Notes under the pieces: model-generated | The model's input: only the letters and a program-made list of their open reading frames with translations | Databases searched by the model: none | What the model was told of the DNA's origin: nothing | NCBI GenBank assembly: GCA_003599025.1 | Contig: QZIL01000106.1 | Span: 1-50,933, forward strand | Length of the DNA stretch: 50,933 nt | Direction of reading: 5' to 3' | DNA from: Nitrospiraceae bacterium | Lineage (GTDB): Bacteria; Nitrospirota; Thermodesulfovibrionia; UBA6902 | Position numbers and translations under genes: made by a program | Shown here: one piece after another, positions 24,317 through 44,929 of the stretch | How positions within the stretch are numbered: the stretch's first letter is position 1 | Layout: each line of letters starts with the position of its first letter

Positions 24317-24814
24317 AGTCTGTCCATAAATTATAGCATGTCAGTTTCGTCATGCCCGAAGCCTGCCCTCTAATGTCGTAATCGGGGGTTCTTAATCAGA
24401 CATCCAGGGTTCAACAGGCTCACCATGGCAGTTTATCCCCTGGGACTGTCGAATGGTGGTTCCGGCCCTGAATTTACCCCGCCTCACCACTCACCATGGC
24501 TATCAAAGATGACAATGATGTATGAGGATTCCGTGGTTATATTTAGAAATTTGAGCCTTACACCTCTCCTGACCAATTTTCGATTAAATCGTAAATTAGT
24601 CACATGCATCAAAAGCTGTAAGTCCCGAGAAAGGCCTACTGGACATAGTCGAAATATTTGATGTCCATGACGCCGGACATAAATATGACCAGACATATTC
24701 TGCGATTAAAGAAATTAAGAAAATATGCTTGCTAAGAATATACCACCGAAGTGCATAGGAAAACTCCTGATTGACATTTATGTTAGCAGTGATATGATTG
24801 GATCATAATTTGTT

Positions 24815-24890
24815 TCCGATAATGTCAGAGCGACCGTGAAGGGGGACGGAATGCAATGGGTCTTAATAAGTAAGACAGCCGAGCTGCCGG
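24815..24890 (+). ncRNA. Putative divergent GEMM-I-like (c-di-GMP/cGAMP) riboswitch aptamer
   Basis: By-eye match to GGGGACGCAAAGCCACGGGUCU...AGACAGCCGGGUUGCCG: here GGGGACGGAATGCAATGGGTCT...AGACAGCCGAGCTGCCGGA, GUGAA loop (24836-24840), stem GTCTTA-ATAAG-TAAGAC. Confidence 0.45.
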
Positions 24891-24921
24891 AGGATGCGCC
24901 TTTGGTGAGTTCGGTTTTTTT
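24879..24921 (+). terminator. Intrinsic terminator / attenuator upstream of lipoprotein gene
   Basis: CCGAGCT (24879-24885) pairs AGTTCGG (24908-24914), inner GCC/GGT and AGG/CCT, then TTTTTTT; 5' arm overlaps the putative aptamer. Confidence 0.6.
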
Positions 24922-24943
24922 ATTAACATAAGGAGGTATAATC

Positions 24944-25528
24944 ATGCTATTGAGAGGGAATAAGTTCGACGTAAGCCTGTGTACACTTGCCGTAATGTTA
25001 GTAGTCATTGGTACACTTGGCTGTGCAGGACCTTATTATAGCCACTCTTTCAAAACTGACTGGCCCGATGCATATAGAGCATCAAATGTGCTTGCGCTTG
25101 CACCCGTGGAGGTCCCGTCGGATCTCCCCAAAGCTGACCAAGCAGAACAGTTCTTTGCTTTTGCTATCTCGGAGAAGCTGAGGATGGGAGGGTTCCAGGT
25201 CGTGGGGCCTGATGTCTACGAACAAACGATGTTCGAGATCACACGGGAGAGAGGCGGATCCTATGATGTCATCACGGGCAAAAAGGACGAGAAAAAGTTT
25301 CAGGAACTTCAAAGGGCCTGCTTGAAGCAACTTGAGACCACCACTGGAGCCAAAGCATTGCTGCAAGCTAAGGTTGTAGTTGTATCAGCACCCTTCTCGG
25401 GCTGCCAAGCCAGTTGGGACGGAGCCACACAATCTATTGCGCATGCCTATCTCGGCATCTTCTGCCCGATTGGCAACATGTTCGGAAAGATTGCAGCCTT
25501 TTCACTTGTAAGGAGTATCTTTGGGTAG
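24944..25528 (+). CDS. Putative lipoprotein, unknown function
   Basis: 194 aa; lipobox LGCAG; AGGAGGT RBS. Confidence 0.8.
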   Translation: MLLRGNKFDVSLCTLAVMLVVIGTLGCAGPYYSHSFKTDWPDAYRASNVLALAPVEVPSDLPKADQAEQFFAFAISEKLRMGGFQVVGPDVYEQTMFEITRERGGSYDVITGKKDEKKFQELQRACLKQLETTTGAKALLQAKVVVVSAPFSGCQASWDGATQSIAHAYLGIFCPIGNMFGKIAAFSLVRSIFG

Positions 25529-25693
25529 CACTGGAGTTCAGTGAGATAAGTATGATCCAATGGACTCTCGTTTTTTTGACTTTACTTATTAAGTGAAACT
25601 CCCCGTGGCAGACCATGGGGGATTCTACAAAGCTTTCGCTAAAAAAAAGAATTAATGGATAATAAAGATCAGATAATTAATAAATGAGATGCC

Positions 25694-26752
25694 ATGATGA
25701 GGTTATATAAACTTTTTTATTTATTAGTTACATGCTTATCATTCTTTGCTTGTGCAACAGGGCCATCTTTAAGATCGTCAATCCCTCAGTTGTACTTCAG
25801 TAAGCCACACGGTTCTGACTGGGTTGCATGGACGGATAGTCCCGGATTTACCAAACCAACTCCAAAAGGCAGATACCATACAATAATTACTATGGCCGGT
25901 TTCAAAAAAACAGATCTTTCGATTAACAACATCGATGAACTCAAGAAATTTGCAGAGGATAATTATAGAGATCCTCGTCTCACGTATAGGAATGTTGCGA
26001 TCACGGAATTCAGCTACTGCGGAAGGGATTGTGTGAAAGTCCAGTTCATAGCAGAAGATCATTTAGTGCCTTATGCCCCCCTGGACAATTTTTTCATCGT
26101 AAATGGATATGATTATTTATGTCTTTCACCTGACAGTCCGGGAGTTCTCATTTATTCTTCATACAGTCAGAGATACCTTCAGGATGAGAAGCCGTTAGAA
26201 GGATTGGAAGCTGAGGTAGAGCCCTTTATGCGAAGCATTGTATATATACGATCAGAAGGCAAAGAGATGCCACTTATAAGTGCATCAAAAAAAGGCGATG
26301 CTTCAGGTGTAAGACAAAGTCTTAAGGAGGCTGTTGATATTAACGCAAAGGGCACTGCCTCCGATTGGGGTAAAACAGCACTAATAGAGGCTGCACATAG
26401 AGGTTATTCAGATATCGTAAAGATATTAATTGACGCAGGGGCAGATATAAACGCCACGGATTTCTATGGTGATACAGCACTGATGCTTGCTATTGATCAA
26501 GACAATCATGAAATTGTCAGAATGCTGCTGAATTCAGAGGCAGACGTTAATGCGCAGAATATTACATATGGAACAACTGCGTTAATGGGCGCTGCGAGAA
26601 AAGGCAATGAAGAAGTGATAAGAATGCTGATGACTGCCAAAGCGGACCCCGGAATTAAAGACTGGGCCGGGAATACAGCTTTAACAATAGCTGATAGGAA
26701 TGGACGCACGGCGATTATAGAGTTGCTTCAAAAAGCAGGGGCAAGGGAGTAA
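25694..26752 (+). CDS. Ankyrin-repeat lipoprotein with unique N-terminal domain
   Basis: Lipobox FFACA; repeats GKTALIEAAHRGYSDIVKILIDAGADINATD, GDTALMLAIDQDNHEIVRMLLNSEADVNAQN. Confidence 0.88.
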   Translation: MMRLYKLFYLLVTCLSFFACATGPSLRSSIPQLYFSKPHGSDWVAWTDSPGFTKPTPKGRYHTIITMAGFKKTDLSINNIDELKKFAEDNYRDPRLTYRNVAITEFSYCGRDCVKVQFIAEDHLVPYAPLDNFFIVNGYDYLCLSPDSPGVLIYSSYSQRYLQDEKPLEGLEAEVEPFMRSIVYIRSEGKEMPLISASKKGDASGVRQSLKEAVDINAKGTASDWGKTALIEAAHRGYSDIVKILIDAGADINATDFYGDTALMLAIDQDNHEIVRMLLNSEADVNAQNITYGTTALMGAARKGNEEVIRMLMTAKADPGIKDWAGNTALTIADRNGRTAIIELLQKAGARE

Positions 26753-26768
26753 GTGGTGCGAGGTTTTT

Positions 26769-27728
26769 ATGAAGATATATAATCTTCTCAAAATCATTAT
26801 ACAGTCTCTTTTACTTATATTATGTTACGGCTGTGCTGGAGCTATCTTGCAGGAAGCAGCAAAAGGAGACACTGCAAAAGTTCAAGAGCTACTAAACAAA
26901 GGTGTCAATGTCAACGATATATCATCAAATGGATATACCCCCCTGTATGCAGCTGCTGAAAAGGGGCGTACAGATACCATCAAACTACTGCTTGCAAGAG
27001 GAGCAAACCCGAACTATCAAATGGCGTCAGATAGTTGTTGTCCTGGATGGACTTCTTTAATGATAGCTGCTGCTAATGGCCATACCCAGGCTGTTCAAGT
27101 CCTTATTGACTCCGGCGCTGATGTTAATACGAGAAATAAATTCGGCCGAACAGCATTGATGTTCGTTTCAAAATATGGCTATACATCAATCATGAAGCTG
27201 TTGTTGGAGGCAGGAGCTACAGTGGATATTCAACCGAATGATAAAACAGAGCGGAATGCGCTGCTTGCGGCGGCAGGTCAAGGACATGCGGGTGCAGTAA
27301 GTATGCTTATCGATTACGGTGCTGATATCAACCTTGCTGATAACGATGGGTACAATGCTCTATTCGCAGCGACAACAGCAGGGCATGTTAGGGTAGTGAA
27401 GGTTTTGATAGATAAAGGGGCTGACTTGAATATAAGAAACAGGACAGGCAATACTCCCCTTGCGCTTGCAATAAATGAAGGATATTTCCAGATTGCAAAG
27501 GCTTTACTGGATGCCGATGCAGATCCGAATATGACATCTATGTATATGTCAACTCCTCTAATGGTCGCTTGTCAGAAAGGAGATAGGGATATGGTTCAAA
27601 TACTTCTCGATAAAGGGGCTGTTATCAATGCAAGAAATATATTTGGAACTACCGCACTTGGATACGCAACTTCATCAGGGCGTAAAGACATTATTGAATT
27701 GCTTCAAAAAGCAGGAGCAACAGAATAA
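26769..27728 (+). CDS. Ankyrin-repeat lipoprotein
   Basis: Lipobox CYGCAG; about eight ANK repeats, e.g. GYTPLYAAAEKGRTDTIKLLLARGANPN. Confidence 0.9.
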   Translation: MKIYNLLKIIIQSLLLILCYGCAGAILQEAAKGDTAKVQELLNKGVNVNDISSNGYTPLYAAAEKGRTDTIKLLLARGANPNYQMASDSCCPGWTSLMIAAANGHTQAVQVLIDSGADVNTRNKFGRTALMFVSKYGYTSIMKLLLEAGATVDIQPNDKTERNALLAAAGQGHAGAVSMLIDYGADINLADNDGYNALFAATTAGHVRVVKVLIDKGADLNIRNRTGNTPLALAINEGYFQIAKALLDADADPNMTSMYMSTPLMVACQKGDRDMVQILLDKGAVINARNIFGTTALGYATSSGRKDIIELLQKAGATE

Positions 27729-27749
27729 CATCCTTGCGGGAGGAAAGCA

Positions 27750-29150
27750 ATGAAACATCTGCTTATCTTTTTTATTGCAATTTGCTTACATCTTTATGGA
27801 TGCGCGAGTGTAAATGAAGCGATCGAAACTGATCCGGACATCCGTAAACTGTCCGAAGAAATAAAAAGGTCGCCATATGACCCCCGACCCCATTTACAGC
27901 TTGCCTTGCTGTATTCAAATAAGTACAAGACTAAGCATAGTATTTCTTATTTAGATCAGGCCATTCATGAGACAAGAGAGGCATTGCTTTTGGCTCCCGA
28001 TTTTCCCCCTGCTCATGGTCTGCTCAGCACTTTCTTGATTGAGAAAGCTTATGCCACACTCGATGAAGATTTGATCGACGAATCTAAAAATGAATATGAA
28101 AAAGCCATAAAATTAAATCCTGATTTTGCCAGGGCAAAAGATATATATCCACCCCATATCAGGACTGCACAACTTTACCTTATAAAGTCAGTAAAAGATA
28201 AAATATTCATAGACCGTGCCATACAGGAATTAAAGGTGTCTGTCAGGCTCAATCCGAATGTTAGCTTATCTCATTTTTTGCTTGGAGGAATTTACGAGGA
28301 CTTAGATAACAATGAGCTCGCGCTTTTCGAGTTCAATGAAGCTGCCCGTCTGGACCCTGACAACCCTGAAGTATATGCTCACATTGGCAGCTTGCACAAA
28401 ACTGGCGTACATTCCGGGGACGGCTGTCTGGATGAATCAGCTACTGAAAAAGGAATAGCTGCATATAGAGAGGCGGCAAAATTAGACCCTCACGAAGCGC
28501 TTTACCACAGAGAGCTCGGATGGTTTTACAGACATAAGGGATTGTATGATATGGAAGTATTTGAAGCTAGAGAGGCACTCAGATTAGAGAATAGTCATAA
28601 AAGCCATAAAGCATTAGGAGATGCCTTCCTATGGAAAGGTGAATTTGAACAAGCTGTAGAAGAATATTTAGAGGCTATAAGACTGCAGCCCAGAGATATT
28701 GACATCATCCGGACCTTGGCTTTCACTTATTTTCTTCTAAATAAATATGATAACGCAGTCAGGGAATTTACCAGATTTTTAAATAAAGCCGACTTGCCTG
28801 ACACTTATGCTTTGCTATGGAAATATTTATCCTTGAAAGAAATCGGTAAAGACATTGAAGCAGGAAAGCTGCTGGATGATTATACCGGTAGGTTTAAGGG
28901 TAAAAAATGGGAATCATTATTAATCAATTATCATCAAGGGGCCATAAGTGAATCTGATCTTATTTCTGGGACAAGACACAAGTGCGACAAAGCTGAGGCA
29001 TATTTTTATATAGGTTATAACGCTCTCCACACGGACAACCAGCAAAAGGCAAGGGAGTTTTTCCAGAAGACCCTTGATACCCATGTTTATTGTTATTATG
29101 AGTATGCCGCAGCCAGAGCGAAGCTTGCGCAATTAGATGCAATGAAGTGA
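27750..29150 (+). CDS. TPR-repeat lipoprotein
   Basis: Lipobox LYGCAS; PYDPRPHLQLALLYSNKYKTKHSISYLDQAIHETREALLLAPDFPPAHGLL. Confidence 0.88.
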   Translation: MKHLLIFFIAICLHLYGCASVNEAIETDPDIRKLSEEIKRSPYDPRPHLQLALLYSNKYKTKHSISYLDQAIHETREALLLAPDFPPAHGLLSTFLIEKAYATLDEDLIDESKNEYEKAIKLNPDFARAKDIYPPHIRTAQLYLIKSVKDKIFIDRAIQELKVSVRLNPNVSLSHFLLGGIYEDLDNNELALFEFNEAARLDPDNPEVYAHIGSLHKTGVHSGDGCLDESATEKGIAAYREAAKLDPHEALYHRELGWFYRHKGLYDMEVFEAREALRLENSHKSHKALGDAFLWKGEFEQAVEEYLEAIRLQPRDIDIIRTLAFTYFLLNKYDNAVREFTRFLNKADLPDTYALLWKYLSLKEIGKDIEAGKLLDDYTGRFKGKKWESLLINYHQGAISESDLISGTRHKCDKAEAYFYIGYNALHTDNQQKAREFFQKTLDTHVYCYYEYAAARAKLAQLDAMK

Positions 29151-29195
29151 AGTAATAATGAACAATTATTATCTTCTTATGATGAGAGGTAAATC

Positions 29196-29783
29196 ATGAA
29201 AATGGTTAATAGTTATTTTCTCATTGTACTTTTACTGTTCGGGTGTGCTTCGTCATTTGTGAAGATTACTCGTGAGACCAACCTTATAACATTAAACGAT
29301 GTTCAATTTACTGCCCCTGACACAGGGGACTGGTATATTCGATACCCAGGGGCTAAAAAAGACGAAGCCGTTTTAACAAAGCAACTTGACCAAGCAAGTA
29401 TCATAATAGTTGTTGCAAGAAACGACATAGTGGATCCACAGCTAAAATCTAAATCAGCCAAGGAAGTTGCAGATGATTTCAGAAATCATGAAAAGCAAAT
29501 AATGATAGAGCAAGGGGTGAATAAAGGTCTATACACCATTAAAGATTTACAGATGGGAGAGATAGATATTCAGGGACAGATATTCTATACCATGGATTAT
29601 GTGAATGTTGCTAAAATAAGCAAAGTTCGTGCAAGCTTATACCTGCTTTTCCCTTCAACGGCACAAAATGACTATTTCATAATGACCTTATTTCAAGAAG
29701 CTACGCCTATTAATGTAGAAATTCCAGATCATAAACCAGTCGCTGTTGAACTGTTAAAAAGTCTGACTTTTGTAAAACATTAG
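29196..29783 (+). CDS. Putative lipoprotein, unknown function
   Basis: 195 aa; lipobox LFGCAS. Confidence 0.8.
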   Translation: MKMVNSYFLIVLLLFGCASSFVKITRETNLITLNDVQFTAPDTGDWYIRYPGAKKDEAVLTKQLDQASIIIVVARNDIVDPQLKSKSAKEVADDFRNHEKQIMIEQGVNKGLYTIKDLQMGEIDIQGQIFYTMDYVNVAKISKVRASLYLLFPSTAQNDYFIMTLFQEATPINVEIPDHKPVAVELLKSLTFVKH

Positions 29784-30031
29784 TACCACCATCTTAATAG
29801 TGAATTCAATTCCAGTGCATCGATTTATTGAAAATATCATTTACATCCATATTTTAAAAAAAGCAGTGCTGATTAACAGTTGTAATTATCAAGAATATAT
29901 AAAACTCAGAATCATTCATTATAGTTAGTTACTGATGACCGATCTGGTATCAATCGGCTGAGGATTAACGGGCAGGAGTTTCAGTTTCCTGACAGGACCA
30001 GTTCAGGGGTTTACCGTCCTGTCCCCCTGCT

Positions 30032-32563
30032 TCACCACTCCCCGTAACAGTCAAAGATGTCCCAGAAGAAATCAACTGATGACCATGGGGAAACAGCCCC
30101 GCTTATGGCGTCCCTCGCCCTTACCCTCCAGTACATTCCTGTACAGCTTGTGGAGAAAGTATAGGATGTCCCTGAAATCCAGCCCGAAGTGAATACCGTT
30201 GAAGTAAAATTGCTTTGATAGGACACCTGGACATTATACTGAACAGGATCTCCCTCAGGGTCAGTAACAGCACTCCACTGAAGTGTGATATTAACGGGGC
30301 CGCCTCCGCTGTTGTAGTCCGGCTCAGGGATAAGTGAAACAGCAGGAGGTGAACCGGGTGATATCACCGCAAATGAATCCATTACCCAGGCTGAACTGAA
30401 CTGCGACAGGGTGCGCACCGCGTCTCTCGCCTTTACTCTCCAGTGCCACGTAGCAGCGGTCTCAACAATTACCGTCCAGCCAGTCGACGCGATCCAGCCC
30501 GAGTTATAGTTTGGGCTGGTGTATGCCGGGTCATCATCTACCTCAACGTAATACTCCGTAAACGACGGCGGCCCGGTCACAGACGGAGCAGGGTACCATT
30601 GGAGTACCACGGACATGTCTGTGGTACTTGTCACATCGGGTTCAGGTATTATGACAGGGGCAGTCTGTGCAGCAGGCTCCGGGTACCCCGGTCCGACCCC
30701 ATGGCAGTCGATACAATAAATAGCCGGGCCGTTCCATACAGCGCCTGAATGGCAGGCCCCAGCACAGAATCCGTACCCGTTGCCCGGTGCTCCCGAGCTT
30801 GTATAAGAAAAATTAGTTACCCACCCGCTGTTGCTTGCCACTTCGATGCTCCCGTTTGCGTGGGTGCTCCCGTAATGGCACGTATTACATGTCATCGGCA
30901 GCCATGATTCTGCATGATGGTCTGAATTCATGTGCTTTAAATGCGTACCTGTGTTCGGCGGATATCCGTGACATGAGTTGCAGGCCAGTGCCCCGCTGCC
31001 CCATACAGGATTTGCATAGGACGTCGGTCCGCCTGTGCCGGTATTGTTCTGCACATTGCTGTGGCATGATATATTGGAACATTGTCCGTATGAGTCAAAC
31101 ATCGCTGCTGTACCGCTGTAACTGCCTCCGCTCACTCTGCTGTCTGCTGCAAATGCCACATGCACCTGACTGTCTGCATGCCTGTCCGCATACCCGGAAT
31201 GACATAGTGTACAGGTCAGATCAAGATCAGGGGCCGTACCTCCTGTATGTTTCTTGTGACTCCCGAGCACAGGCGGATTGGCATTGGTTGCCAGATGACA
31301 GTCCCCGCAGCTTACAACACCATCCCATACAGGAGTGGTGTTTATGCCATTGCCCCATTTGCTCCCGTCAGGCAGTTCTCCGTGGCAGTAGATATTAGAG
31401 CATGTTTTTGATCCAGCGGCCGGATCTATCACTGTGGTATTCGCTTCACTGCTGTCATACCCGGCTGCAGCCTGACCGTCGTATATTCCTCCGTTATAAA
31501 ACCCGCCGAAAAGCGAAAATCCCATTGTTATGTCCTGAGGGGGGCCGTCATTATGTCTGGCGCCCGAACCGACACTGCGATAATGACAATAATCGCAGGG
31601 ATAGAATTTGTCATTTACATGCTTATTGTGAGCGCCTGCCGCAGCCGAACCGGTGACACCGGGATTATTGACCAGACCATGAGGCCCGCCTGTCGCTTCA
31701 CTGACGACCGGAGGATAGCCATGACACACATCACAACCCGTACCCTTAAACCCGTCCGCGTGTGTGTGGCAGAGCGTGCATTTCAGTCCCTCGTTATGAG
31801 TATGATTGCCTGAGGCATTATTTCTGTGATATACAGTTTGTGTATGGCAGACTTCACAGATCCCGTCATATGTCCCGTCACCGTCTGCAAAGGATTTGGG
31901 GCCGGTATTATTAAAAAACCTGGCAGTCCGGTTCCCGCTGCTGGGGGTCCTGATCGTGCTTTCAATAAGTTTCCCGTACACAATAGCAAATGTGTTCCCG
32001 GCCGCCGCCTTTGTCAGATCAACAGGTCCGGATATCATCAGTGTATCAGCAGTGTTGCCTGAAATCCTGTATTTGTATTTCATCTGTGCAGTATTGGGGA
32101 TGACTACCAGCCCCTGGTATGCATTTACTCCCCATCCGGCCCCTGATTTTGTGAGCACTGTTGAGGTAATGTTTGTTGAAGTGCCTGAATAAAGGTAGCT
32201 GGAGCTTCCGTAAGTGTCCGCCTGTCTCTGGGTATGAGGGTTATGGCAGGTCCTGCACTCTATAGTCCAGTCTCCGTAGCCATTGTCTGTCTGAAGGCTC
32301 GAATGTGTCCTTACATAAGGGGCCTCTATGTCGTTGTGACAGCTCCAGCAGAGGGTATTATACTGTGTGTCATCTATGTCCTGTGGTAAATGCGCTGTCC
32401 ATGGCGGCAGCAGAGAAGGCTGTGACCCGTAAACAAAGTGGCAGGAACTGCACCCTATGCTGTTCCCGCTGAAATGGGGATAATCAAGGGCCTGGCCCCC
32501 TGATGTTATCAGGCCCAGCGTCAGTGTTGAGACTAAGGCAATTATGTTTAAATATTTTTTCAT
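30032..32563 (-). CDS. Large multiheme c-type cytochrome with C-terminal fibronectin-III-like domains
   Basis: 843 aa; 12 CXXCH + 2 CX4CH (CSNIYCH, CSNISCH) + CAGACH; Geobacter-type CxxxxCH/CxxCH repeats. Confidence 0.9.
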   Translation of the reverse strand: MKKYLNIIALVSTLTLGLITSGGQALDYPHFSGNSIGCSSCHFVYGSQPSLLPPWTAHLPQDIDDTQYNTLCWSCHNDIEAPYVRTHSSLQTDNGYGDWTIECRTCHNPHTQRQADTYGSSSYLYSGTSTNITSTVLTKSGAGWGVNAYQGLVVIPNTAQMKYKYRISGNTADTLMISGPVDLTKAAAGNTFAIVYGKLIESTIRTPSSGNRTARFFNNTGPKSFADGDGTYDGICEVCHTQTVYHRNNASGNHTHNEGLKCTLCHTHADGFKGTGCDVCHGYPPVVSEATGGPHGLVNNPGVTGSAAAGAHNKHVNDKFYPCDYCHYRSVGSGARHNDGPPQDITMGFSLFGGFYNGGIYDGQAAAGYDSSEANTTVIDPAAGSKTCSNIYCHGELPDGSKWGNGINTTPVWDGVVSCGDCHLATNANPPVLGSHKKHTGGTAPDLDLTCTLCHSGYADRHADSQVHVAFAADSRVSGGSYSGTAAMFDSYGQCSNISCHSNVQNNTGTGGPTSYANPVWGSGALACNSCHGYPPNTGTHLKHMNSDHHAESWLPMTCNTCHYGSTHANGSIEVASNSGWVTNFSYTSSGAPGNGYGFCAGACHSGAVWNGPAIYCIDCHGVGPGYPEPAAQTAPVIIPEPDVTSTTDMSVVLQWYPAPSVTGPPSFTEYYVEVDDDPAYTSPNYNSGWIASTGWTVIVETAATWHWRVKARDAVRTLSQFSSAWVMDSFAVISPGSPPAVSLIPEPDYNSGGGPVNITLQWSAVTDPEGDPVQYNVQVSYQSNFTSTVFTSGWISGTSYTFSTSCTGMYWRVRARDAISGAVSPWSSVDFFWDIFDCYGEW

Positions 32564-36303: not shown

Positions 36304-36728
36304 CAGGTAAAACAGAAAACCCTTGCATCATCGAGGTCAGCCACATTTGCCTCTTCAATTATGCGGGTGTATATACTTCATACTGCAATGCAGCAAACGA
36401 AGTCTAATATATTCCAGAGCAAATGCAATCAATATGCCAGCACATACCGCAATTAATATCCTTTGATAAAACAGGATGTTAAGTGACCTGGTGGGAACAA
36501 TTATCCATTCACTGCGGGCAGCATCTGGTTTTTGCACCTGTACGTATCAGTAATTCCACCGGATGCAGTACCCGCTGCGGCCAGCCCTGCCTGTTAGCAG
36601 TCAGGACAAAACAGAATCTCAGGTCGATATCGTATGCGCCCTTTTATTAATTGCAATGATTCTGTAACAATATGAGAGACAGGCAAAATTCGGCGGGAGC
36701 ATCTGCCCTGCATGAAAGAACATATAAC

Positions 36729-38582
36729 ATGAAAGTCAGCCCTATACGCAATAAAATATTCCTTTGCATTTTTCTTGCTGTAATCACCCTTGCTGTTTAC
36801 TGGCAGACAGCAGATCATCAGTTTGTCAATTATGACGATGGAGTGTATATAACTGAAAATCCCCATGTAAAAGCAGGGCTGAGCATGGAAGGGACCAGGT
36901 GGGCATTCACCACCATGCACACCGGCAACTGGCACCCGCTTACGTGGCTTTCTCACATGCTCGATATCAGCATGTTCGGCCTTGACCCCGGCCCCCATCA
37001 TCTGATGAATGCAGCCTTTCACACGGCCAGTACCGTCCTGCTTTTCCTGCTTCTTCTTCAGATGACCGGGGCACAATGGCAAAGCGTCTTTGCAGCTGCA
37101 TTGTTCGCCCTTCATCCACTTCACGTGGAGTCTGTTGCCTGGGCCGCTGAGCGCAAGGACGTTCTGAGCGCTTTTTTCTGGATCCTGACTTTGCTGTTTT
37201 ATGTAAGATACGTGAAACATCCGGCACGTATCCGTTATCTCCTGACACTGACCGTTTTTGTCCTCGGCCTGATGTCCAAGTCAATGCTTGTGACACTGCC
37301 GCTTGTGATGTTTCTGATAGACTACTGGCCCCTGGGGCGACTGCAGTTCAGAAAGACGGACTCTGCACTGCAGCAGGGCCACAGTAACACGGCCACAAAA
37401 ACGTTTAACAGGCGGCTGATACTGGAGAAGGTGCCTTTTTTCGCGTTGTCTGTTTTAATAGGCATTGTAACGATATACGCGCAGCACAAAGGCGGGGCCG
37501 TTGCATCTGTTAAGTCCCTGCCCCTCTCTTTCCGGGCCGTAAACGCGCTCTGGTCATATGTTCTCTATATGGCCAGGATGGTCTGGCCGCTTGATCTTGC
37601 AGTTATATATCCCATCCCGTCCACGTTAACGCTATTGCAGGGGCTCCTTTCAGGCTTTCTGCTGGCGGGGATGACTGTCGCAGTGGCCATCCATGCGAAA
37701 AGGCATCCGTACTTTCTTACGGGCTGGCTCTGGTATCTTATAACACTCGTACCTGTCATCGGACTGGTGCAGGTCGGGAGGCAGTCCATGGCTGACCGCT
37801 ATACCTACATCCCGTTTATCGGTATTTTTATCATGATCGCATGGGGCCTTCAGATCATTGCAGGAGACAACCGCTTCCGTCGTACCGCAGTGTCTGTGGC
37901 CGCGGGTGGCACGCTCCTGTTCTTTACGGCCTGCACATGGCTGCAAATCGGCCACTGGAAAGACAGTGTGACCCTCTTCAGCCACGCAGTTAAAACAGTT
38001 CCTGATAATTATGTCGCACATGAAAGCCTCGGTTATGCCCTTGCAGAAAGAGGCAGACTGGATGAGGCGGTTTATCAATATTCCGAAGCGATCAGGATAT
38101 CCCCTGATTATGAGAGGGCACTTACGGGAATGGGTAATGTACTGGTCAAACAGGGAAAGATAAAAGAGGCAATCTATTATACAAACAAGGCTCTCGTTAT
38201 TAATCCTGATTCAGCGGAAGCGCATTTCAATATGGGATTTGCCCTCATGAATGAGGGCCGGGACAGGGAGGCCGCTCACCATTATTCCGAGGGGCTGCGT
38301 ATTGACCCGGAAAACGCAGAAATCCACTTCATCCTCGGCGTTATATCAGCTGAGCAGGGTAAATTTGATGAAGGCATCAGGTATTTCTCTGAAGCCCTGC
38401 ATTTGGCACCCGACTATGCAGAGGCACATTACAGCCTTGGACTCGTACTGCTTCAGCAGGGGAAGATAAATGAAAGCATTCGGCACTTCTCCGAGGCCCT
38501 GCGTATCAAACCTGATTTTGCGGAGGCGGGACATAGAATGAGGGAAGCCATTCAGCTCAGAAATGCTCCTCCTGGGAAATAG
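36729..38582 (+). CDS. GT-C/TMTC-like membrane protein with C-terminal TPRs
   Basis: Start MKVSPIRNKIF at 36729; FVNYDDGVYITENPHV, NWHPLTWLSHMLD, LHPLHVESVAWAAERKDVLS; five or more TPRs. Confidence 0.88.
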   Translation: MKVSPIRNKIFLCIFLAVITLAVYWQTADHQFVNYDDGVYITENPHVKAGLSMEGTRWAFTTMHTGNWHPLTWLSHMLDISMFGLDPGPHHLMNAAFHTASTVLLFLLLLQMTGAQWQSVFAAALFALHPLHVESVAWAAERKDVLSAFFWILTLLFYVRYVKHPARIRYLLTLTVFVLGLMSKSMLVTLPLVMFLIDYWPLGRLQFRKTDSALQQGHSNTATKTFNRRLILEKVPFFALSVLIGIVTIYAQHKGGAVASVKSLPLSFRAVNALWSYVLYMARMVWPLDLAVIYPIPSTLTLLQGLLSGFLLAGMTVAVAIHAKRHPYFLTGWLWYLITLVPVIGLVQVGRQSMADRYTYIPFIGIFIMIAWGLQIIAGDNRFRRTAVSVAAGGTLLFFTACTWLQIGHWKDSVTLFSHAVKTVPDNYVAHESLGYALAERGRLDEAVYQYSEAIRISPDYERALTGMGNVLVKQGKIKEAIYYTNKALVINPDSAEAHFNMGFALMNEGRDREAAHHYSEGLRIDPENAEIHFILGVISAEQGKFDEGIRYFSEALHLAPDYAEAHYSLGLVLLQQGKINESIRHFSEALRIKPDFAEAGHRMREAIQLRNAPPGK

Positions 38583-42665: not shown

Positions 42666-44690
42666 TCACTGACCAGTACCGATCTGCTGCCGGAGGGCCT
42701 CTGCCCTTACAGCATCGAGTGTCTCCAGCTTGAGAAGCACTTCTGACGCATCTCCTTGTCTCCCGATCGCAAGGTAATTCATACCGAGCCGGTACCAGGA
42801 AGCTGCATGGTCCGGCTTTATTCGCACGGCTTCCCGCAGGGCCGCAACTGCGTTGTCCAGCTGCCCGGTCCTGTTATAGATGAGTCCGAGGTTATACCAT
42901 GAAACATAGTCGCCAGACCCGAGTTGTGCGGCCTGCTGAAAAGCAGCAGCAGCATCGTATAGCAATCCAGAGCTTTGATACGCAATACCGAGATTGGTCC
43001 ATGCTGCTGCGTAGTCCGGTTTAAGCTGCACTGCTTTACGATAGACTTCAATCGCTTTGGCTGTCTGTCCGGTTCTTCCATAAAGAGAACCGAGATTAAA
43101 CCAGGCCGCAGGTTCATCCGGAGTAAGCCGCGTCGCTTTTAAAAGTGCATCGGACGCCTCTGGAATACGGCCTAACGACAGATAAACAGCACCCAGATTG
43201 GACCATGCATTGGCATATTCAGGCTTGAGCCGGAGCGCCTCACCAAGGGCGCTGGCAGCTTCATTCAGCTCCCCCCTTTTCCTGTGCAGGACACCAAGGT
43301 TATACCAGCCGGACTCGTTTTCAGGACAGAGCCGCAGCGTTTCTTTCAGATGGAATTCGGTTTCATCAAGTTCGTCCTTCTTTATGAGATAATCAGCAAG
43401 GCTGTTATGCGCCAGGCAATTATCAGTCGTGACTCTGAGGGTATGACGGAAAAGGGTTTCATGAGTCTGCCAATGTCCGGCCTGCAGCCACGTAAGGCCT
43501 GCCAGAACAACAATCACTGCTGCCGATGCAGCCCGGAGTACCTGCGTCCTCATGTTCCGGTTCATGAGCAGCTCAGGGACCTCCCACGCTACCATTATGA
43601 AAATTCCGATCAGAGGAATATATGTATAGCGGTCTGCAATCGCCTGCGCACCCACCTGCACCAGTCCGATCACAGGGACCATGGTGCCCAGAAACCAGAA
43701 CCAGCCGACTGCCACCCCTGGTGAGCGCCTGATGCGCAGCAAAGCCCAGACAGTCAGCAGAACAAGAAGCAGACATGCTCCGGCTACCTGCCAGACCGTC
43801 AAGGAAGATCCAGGGTGGGGATAGAATACAGAGAGAGACACAGGCCAGAAGGTCTTCCAGAGATACTGAACATAGCCGACCACTGCATTGGCCAGACGGT
43901 CTCCAATGTCCAGGGAGAGGCCAGCAACCGCCCCCCCGCGTTTCTGGGCTATCACAGTAATCACACTTGACGCAGCGCATAACACCAGTATTGGTATCTT
44001 CTCAACAATTAAACGTGATACTGTCGTCTGCGGCCGGCCCTGCCCTCCTTCATGAATTGTCTGAAATCTGCCACTCATACGGCCAAGAGGCCAGAAGTCA
44101 AGCAGCAGAAACAGCAAAGGCAGGGTCACGAGCATGGGTTTGCTTAAAAGACCGAGAGCAAGAAGCAGTACCGTCACTGCATATCGCTGAACACCGGGGC
44201 GCTCCGCATAATGCACATAGGCGTTGAGGGCAAGCAGGCCGAAGAACGCGCTCAGAATGTCCTTGCGCTCTGCAGCCCATGCAACTGATTCGACATGAAG
44301 AGGATGGAGCGCAAACAGCGCAGCAACTAAGGCGCTCTTCCACAGCGCACCGGTCATCCGCGTGAGGGTCAACAATAGCAATACAGTGCTGGCAGTATGA
44401 AAAAGGACATTCACCAGATGGTGCGGACCGGGGTCAAGGCCGAACATCTGTACATCGAGCATGTGGGAGAGCCAGGTCAGCGGGTGCCAGTTGGCTGCGT
44501 ACATGGAGGTAAATGCCCACCTGGTCCCGCTCCACGACAGACCTCCCCGCACCTGTGGGTTCTCGGTCACATACACATTGTCATCATAGTAAATAAACTC
44601 ATGTCCGCCGACCTGCGCGTATACCAGAAAGGTTGAAAGGGCCAGCAGCAGGGAGATTATTAGCGGAAGGTACTTTCCTTTTGTGTCCAT
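42666..44690 (-). CDS. GT-C/TMTC-like membrane protein with C-terminal TPRs (paralogue of 36729..38582)
   Basis: Start MDTKGKYLPLIISLLLALS at 44690; FIYYDDNVYVTENPQV, NWHPLTWLSHMLD, LHPLHVESVAWAAERKDILSAFF; multiple TPRs. Confidence 0.9.
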   Translation of the reverse strand: MDTKGKYLPLIISLLLALSTFLVYAQVGGHEFIYYDDNVYVTENPQVRGGLSWSGTRWAFTSMYAANWHPLTWLSHMLDVQMFGLDPGPHHLVNVLFHTASTVLLLLTLTRMTGALWKSALVAALFALHPLHVESVAWAAERKDILSAFFGLLALNAYVHYAERPGVQRYAVTVLLLALGLLSKPMLVTLPLLFLLLDFWPLGRMSGRFQTIHEGGQGRPQTTVSRLIVEKIPILVLCAASSVITVIAQKRGGAVAGLSLDIGDRLANAVVGYVQYLWKTFWPVSLSVFYPHPGSSLTVWQVAGACLLLVLLTVWALLRIRRSPGVAVGWFWFLGTMVPVIGLVQVGAQAIADRYTYIPLIGIFIMVAWEVPELLMNRNMRTQVLRAASAAVIVVLAGLTWLQAGHWQTHETLFRHTLRVTTDNCLAHNSLADYLIKKDELDETEFHLKETLRLCPENESGWYNLGVLHRKRGELNEAASALGEALRLKPEYANAWSNLGAVYLSLGRIPEASDALLKATRLTPDEPAAWFNLGSLYGRTGQTAKAIEVYRKAVQLKPDYAAAWTNLGIAYQSSGLLYDAAAAFQQAAQLGSGDYVSWYNLGLIYNRTGQLDNAVAALREAVRIKPDHAASWYRLGMNYLAIGRQGDASEVLLKLETLDAVRAEALRQQIGTGQ

Positions 44691-44766
44691 ATCGAATGGT
44701 AACACGTGATGGGACGTATTTAAAAGAAGATACACCTGTAAAAGTATCAAGTGACTCGCCCTTGCC

Positions 44767-44858
44767 GTCATACCCGCGAAAGCTGGCATCCAGATGTCTA
44801 TCGACTCACCTCCGGCTTTAAAGAATACTGGATTCCCGATAAAGACCTCGGGAATGAC
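44767..44858. repeat. REP/MITE-like inverted repeat
   Basis: GTCATACCCGCGAAAGCTGGCATCCAG ... CTGGATTCCCGATAAAGACCTCGGGAATGAC. Confidence 0.6.
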
Positions 44859-44929
44859 AAACAAAGACTTGTGCATGGACCTCAGAAGCTGTATTGAGCA
44901 ATTGACAGTAAAAAAGGGTAAAATTATTC

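Follow-up and report, generated by a model that had tools for sequence, protein, structure and literature searches.

A degenerate GEMM-I riboswitch leader and an apparently truncated lipoprotein gene, probably joined to a foreign block of ankyrin and TPR lipoprotein genes, in a Nitrospiraceae bacterium

The stretch of DNA analysed here (the window) comprises the 50,933 nucleotides of contig QZIL01000106.1 from a Nitrospiraceae bacterium (assembly GCA_003599025.1). It carries, between positions 24944 and 29783, five consecutive open reading frames on the plus strand that are predicted to encode lipoproteins of 194, 352, 319, 466 and 195 amino acids, designated genes 1–5, behind an RNA leader related to the GEMM-I riboswitches, also known as the cyclic di-GMP-I (c-di-GMP-I) class. 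A first-pass annotation, made from the sequence alone, had recognized this run of lipoprotein genes, including two with ankyrin repeats and one with TPRs, all of which was confirmed, the repeats by Pfam. The genes and the gap that divides gene 1 from the others are as follows.

24944–25528, plus strand: gene 1, a lipoprotein gene of an uncharacterised family, apparently truncated at its 3' end; strict lipobox, shorter than both homologues, G+C content at third codon positions (GC3) 0.528
25529–25693, no strand: AT-rich gap of 165 nucleotides, the likely junction between DNA of host-like and of foreign composition; G+C content falls from about 0.5 to 0.23–0.39
25694–26752, plus strand: gene 2, a lipoprotein with an unnamed N-terminal domain and ankyrin repeats (Ank_2, 1.3e-28); strict lipobox
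26769–27728, plus strand: gene 3, a predicted lipoprotein consisting almost wholly of ankyrin repeats (Ank_2, 4.5e-77); loose lipobox
27750–29150, plus strand: gene 4, a predicted lipoprotein with TPRs (TPR_11, 6.4e-24); loose lipobox
29196–29783, plus strand: gene 5, a lipoprotein probably belonging, by profile kinship, to the unnamed domain family seen at the N-terminus of gene 2; strict lipobox

Each of the five proteins opens with a hydrophobic segment followed by a lipobox-like cysteine, at the residues quoted in the first-pass annotation. The products of genes 1, 2 and 5 pass the strict prokaryotic lipobox pattern, and those of genes 3 (LCYGC) and 4 (HLYGC) satisfy only a looser one; when 29 other genes of the window were put to the same test, none passed the strict pattern and one passed the loose pattern. 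The residue after the lipobox cysteine governs sorting to the outer membrane in Escherichia coli, where alanine suits the outer membrane, and all five proteins have alanine at this position (+2). Taken with the lipoboxes and the repeats, this suggests that the products of genes 2–5 probably lie on the periplasmic side of the outer membrane, and a role as protein-binding scaffolds of the envelope is the most likely function for them. The gaps between the genes measure 165, 16, 21 and 45 nucleotides, the first as annotated and each of the other three one nucleotide shorter than had been reported.

Genes 1 and 5 matched no Pfam family above its cut-off, and under-threshold Pfam and NCBIfam matches of gene 1 to an F420 oxidoreductase and a ribulose epimerase were not believed. 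Ankyrin matches to Legionella effectors, MzaA and the PADLOC ankyrin models involved the repeats only and lay far below the cut-offs where these exist. Searches of the PDB by sequence, of plasmids with genes 1 and 5, and scans of genome contigs gave no match, and AlphaFold models built without an alignment were unusable for both gene 1 (predicted local distance difference test score 38) and gene 5 (32).

The region upstream of gene 1 contains the following elements, all on the plus strand.

24771–24798, plus strand: sigma-70-like promoter, TTGACA-16-TATGAT with a TG extension; 11 of 12 consensus matches, the best in the region, assigned by consensus match only
24814–24891, plus strand: degenerate GEMM-I (c-di-GMP-I) aptamer homologue, matched by a lineage model and, below cut-off, by the Rfam family c-di-GMP-I-GGC
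24830–24844, plus strand: remnant of the P2 helix with a GUGA loop; four of six pairs gone, one base deleted
24858–24880, plus strand: P3 helix, all seven modelled pairs intact
24877–24922, plus strand: intrinsic terminator; its 5' arm shares sequence with the 3' side of P3 and with the aptamer 3' end

The resemblance of the leader to GEMM-I, as first noted, proved to reflect common ancestry, although the proposed check against Rfam gave no match at its cut-off. Nothing in the whole window scored above an Rfam gathering cut-off. A permissive local scan over 401 nucleotides matched the leader to c-di-GMP-I-GGC (RF03167, the sibling of GEMM-I, RF01051) at 27.2 bits (E=1.9e-4), where the cut-off is 59, and a genome-wide GEMM-I search at E<=0.001 did not recover the leader; an Rfam match of the terminator to DUF2815 RNA (E=1.4) was dismissed as chance. 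GEMM-I RNAs are otherwise common in this lineage, with at least one in 26 of the 41 genomes searched and six above cut-off in this genome. By reading, these six (L001–L006) stand upstream of genes for a subtilisin-like protease, fibronectin-type proteins, multihaem cytochromes and a PEP-CTERM-like protein. When 30 GEMM-I RNAs of relatives were aligned (A1), three helices were strongly supported by covariation, with 96% of cells paired, two-sided changes in 14 of 15 pairs and none of 500 shuffles as good. A covariance model (R1) built from these 30 RNAs, with the window sequence left out, matched 24814–24891 at 45.6 bits (E=3.4e-13), and as the sole match in the 50,933 bases it identifies the leader, on sequence, as a true GEMM-I (c-di-GMP-I) homologue. 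Membership in this riboswitch class is thus a matter of homology within the same lineage, at a score short of the Rfam gathering threshold.

Damage to this aptamer is concentrated in P2. P2 is fully paired in 25 of the 30 relatives and has a single unpaired position in the other five, whereas four of its six pairs are broken in the window, one of them through a deleted base, so that the GNRA-type loop (GUGA) is present and the helix that should carry it is lost. P3 and both side pairs next to the ligand pocket are intact. With the residues numbered as we take them to correspond, the equivalents of G20 and A47 are present by alignment, and that of C92 was placed by eye only; retention of the first two would suit c-di-GMP rather than cyclic GMP-AMP (cGAMP) as the ligand. 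The pair 21-46 is U-G in the leader, where relatives have G-C or C-G, and can still form. A subgroup of the GEMM-I RNAs of this lineage (L004 and L005 of the same genome, L027, L039 and L041–L044) carries C21-G46 in place of G21-C46, so that both sides of a pair adjoining the ligand pocket have clearly changed; U21-G46 is one step away from the form of this subgroup. In a related c-di-GMP riboswitch, stabilization by the ligand is partly due to the P2 tetraloop contact, and two mutant RNAs designed to probe such contacts showed no binding (PMC9262584). By analogy, low or absent ligand binding by the leader RNA is likely, and because the P2 helix is lost it is doubtful that the leader works as a nucleotide sensor.

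In the expression platform, the promoter-like site ends 15 nucleotides upstream of the aptamer, so that transcription, which most likely begins from this promoter, is expected to start just before the aptamer. The terminator that had been annotated at the leader end is real: its hairpin (24877–24916) has a folding energy of -23.7 kcal/mol and is followed by seven U residues. It is mutually exclusive with the aptamer, and forcing P3 to form raises the folding energy by about 8 kcal/mol over that of the free fold; without a ligand-stabilized aptamer the terminator should win. By analogy this overlap is the logic of an ON switch, as in the cGAMP-responsive GEMM-I switch of Geobacter pilM, where the terminator likewise draws on the aptamer's 3' part and binding would antiterminate (PMC9262584). 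Unlike that switch, the leader has G at position 20 (the c-di-GMP type) and not A, its P2 is broken, and its target genes are unrelated (PMC9262584).

The leader could on this basis be a working, diverged c-di-GMP-I ON switch, in which the ligand holds P1 and P3, blocks the terminator and raises the five lipoproteins at high signal. The retained equivalents of G20 and A47 with a 21-46 pair that still forms, the exclusive aptamer and terminator, the abutting promoter and the six GEMM-I RNAs of the same genome, which precede genes for cytochromes and other exported proteins, are all consistent with this, but we consider it unlikely: the helix required for the tetraloop contact is lost, the Rfam score is far under its cut-off and the leader escapes the genome-wide search, and the gene directly downstream is truncated. 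With P2 lost, the terminator would instead fold by default, and genes 1–5 would be weakly expressed and largely without ligand control.

Clear homologues of gene 1 were limited to two distant members of the phylum, namely L084 (genome G287; 32% identity, E=9e-22) and L085 (genome G250; 30% identity, E=1.3e-15). Both run about 70 C-terminal residues past the stop of gene 1 and share in this part a common NAGGI segment. The missing part of about 70 residues is not encoded in any frame of the sequence that follows, all three having been read, and gene 1 is most simply read, from this comparison, as 3'-truncated.

Base composition separates gene 1 from the genes that follow it. GC3 is 0.363, 0.331, 0.377 and 0.321 in genes 2, 3, 4 and 5, respectively, whereas 28 other genes of the window range from 0.437 to 0.605 (mean 0.525, standard deviation 0.043). 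The difference is significant for genes 2–5 (0.35) both against gene 1 (0.53; p=4e-6) and against the rest (p=5e-33); genes 2–5 are compositional outliers of foreign appearance, behind a gene 1 of host-like GC3.

The gap at this junction bears on another reading, that genes 2–5 have a promoter of their own within it and that the leader controls the truncated gene 1 alone. The gap is AT-rich and marks the change in composition, and a perfect 8-bp hairpin at 25601–25620 (CCCCGTGG/CCATGGGG), which lacks a U-tract, could also limit read-through. On the other hand, the gap contains no consensus sigma-70 site and the sole strong plus-strand promoter is that at 24771, so co-transcription of gene 1 with genes 2–5 may occur; we regard a separate promoter as possible, if doubtful. 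A suspected trace of the neighbouring cytochrome gene within the gap was no better than shuffles. Upstream of the island, 24455–24511 is similar over 57 columns to 30006–30059, at the 3' end of the cytochrome gene that lies downstream; none of 1000 shuffles was as good, though only just, and this segment is perhaps the remnant of a second copy of the cytochrome gene.

In two genomes of the same genus (G001 and G002) the flanking genes, one spermidine-synthase-like and the other encoding a multihaem cytochrome, adjoin without the island and with an unrelated short sequence between them; therefore the island was either inserted or lost repeatedly. In a further genome (G003) the downstream genes differ. 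Gene 1, the N-terminus of gene 2 and gene 5 had no homologue in 40 relatives, four of them of the same genus. The five-gene set and its order were thus not kept in relatives, a circumstance that the first-pass annotation had itself named as counting against its proposal.

Wider searches recovered scattered distant relatives of gene 5 (L065, L066 and L067) and of the gene 2 N-terminus (L063). In L065 the gene 5-like domain is fused to ankyrin repeats, which is the architecture of gene 2, and L063 directly follows a TPR lipoprotein-like gene. A cytochrome, L064, was discarded as a false match to gene 2. A direct kinship between the gene 2 N-terminus and gene 5 could not be upheld, there being no pairwise similarity and only a partial profile-profile match; the two are linked via L063 and L065, and only through these intermediates do we accept, from sequence comparison, that they share one unnamed lipoprotein domain. 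Besides both window copies, a joint profile (A5) recognized loci in five of 395 further genomes, among them a new locus in G272 that adjoins another lipoprotein. The domain matched no Pfam or PDB family. The loci in the same phylum (L063/L079, L065/L081, L066/L080 and L078) resemble gene 5 and the gene 2 N-terminus in sequence, L065 in its ankyrin fusion and L079 in standing beside a TPR lipoprotein, but none has a GEMM-I leader and their gene order is unlike that of the window. Genome G205 has two ankyrin-fused copies of the gene 5 type, L065/L081 (1687–2937) and L077 (3170–4413), one intact and one interrupted, which suggests turnover in the family. Elsewhere in the window, two related membrane proteins, both with TPRs at the C-terminus, are encoded at 36672–38582 and 42666–44876; the latter shares 44% identity with the counterpart of the former in G002.

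The main alternative to a scaffold function for lipoproteins 2–5 is that of immunity-type proteins: the ankyrin lipoproteins would serve for immunity or orphan immunity, countering periplasm-acting toxins from neighbouring bacteria. Immunity arrays are often of foreign composition and located in variable slots, and genes 2–5 are foreign in composition and occupy a slot that differs among members of the genus. The analogy is with Tli of Enterobacter cloacae, which acts against the phospholipase Tle of a type VI secretion system and which, like the products of genes 2 and 3, combines a lipoprotein signal with ankyrin repeats and a periplasmic location (PMC10294624). Unlike tli, however, the window genes have no recognized cognate phospholipase, secretion-system or effector gene nearby, and gene 2 has an additional N-terminal domain (PMC10294624). 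No toxin, type VI secretion or contact-inhibition gene was recognized in the window or beside the domain relatives, and the PADLOC matches were to ankyrin or TPR repeats only. We therefore hold such a role to be decidedly unlikely, and keep to protein-binding envelope scaffolds.

The locus from 24771 to 29783 is thus probably composite. A leader derived from a c-di-GMP-I (GEMM-I) ON-type riboswitch, now decayed, would stand before a 3'-truncated lipoprotein gene of host-like composition, joined to a lineage-specific AT-rich block of four lipoprotein genes (25694–29783), probably acquired horizontally. The first-pass annotation had proposed a five-protein complex under nucleotide-signal control; since gene 1 is cut short and genes 2–5 differ in composition, the five genes do not form one coherent unit, and with the sensor apparently decayed and genes 2–5 seemingly of different origin we think it reasonably probable that genes 1–5 are a patched-together locus and not a single signal-controlled complex.

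Several points weigh against this interpretation. A leader still in use would be expected to keep its GUGA loop, P3 and terminator and a near-consensus promoter, and all four are retained here. Base composition suggests a foreign origin of genes 2–5 without proving it, and gene 1 may be a naturally shorter form, its two clear homologues being only about 30% identical to it. The locus, and with it any view of selection on the aptamer, comes from a single genome in an assembly that is 70% complete. It is conceivable, if very unlikely, that the leader still functions, as a GEMM-I variant that dispenses with the P2 docking helix usual in this class and whose ligand preference is weaker or altered, and that it has been captured to control horizontally acquired ankyrin and TPR lipoproteins of the outer membrane. 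The association of riboswitch and lipoproteins is so far particular to the locus at 24814–29783.

The locus illustrates that decay of both the sensor and the first gene can go unnoticed when a riboswitch-led operon is inspected by eye. A leader that still worked would offer a test of whether GEMM-I RNAs can do without their conserved P2 docking contact. The locus also brings to light an uncharacterised lipoprotein domain, matched by no Pfam model, which occurs sporadically across the phylum, in some cases as a fusion with ankyrin repeats.

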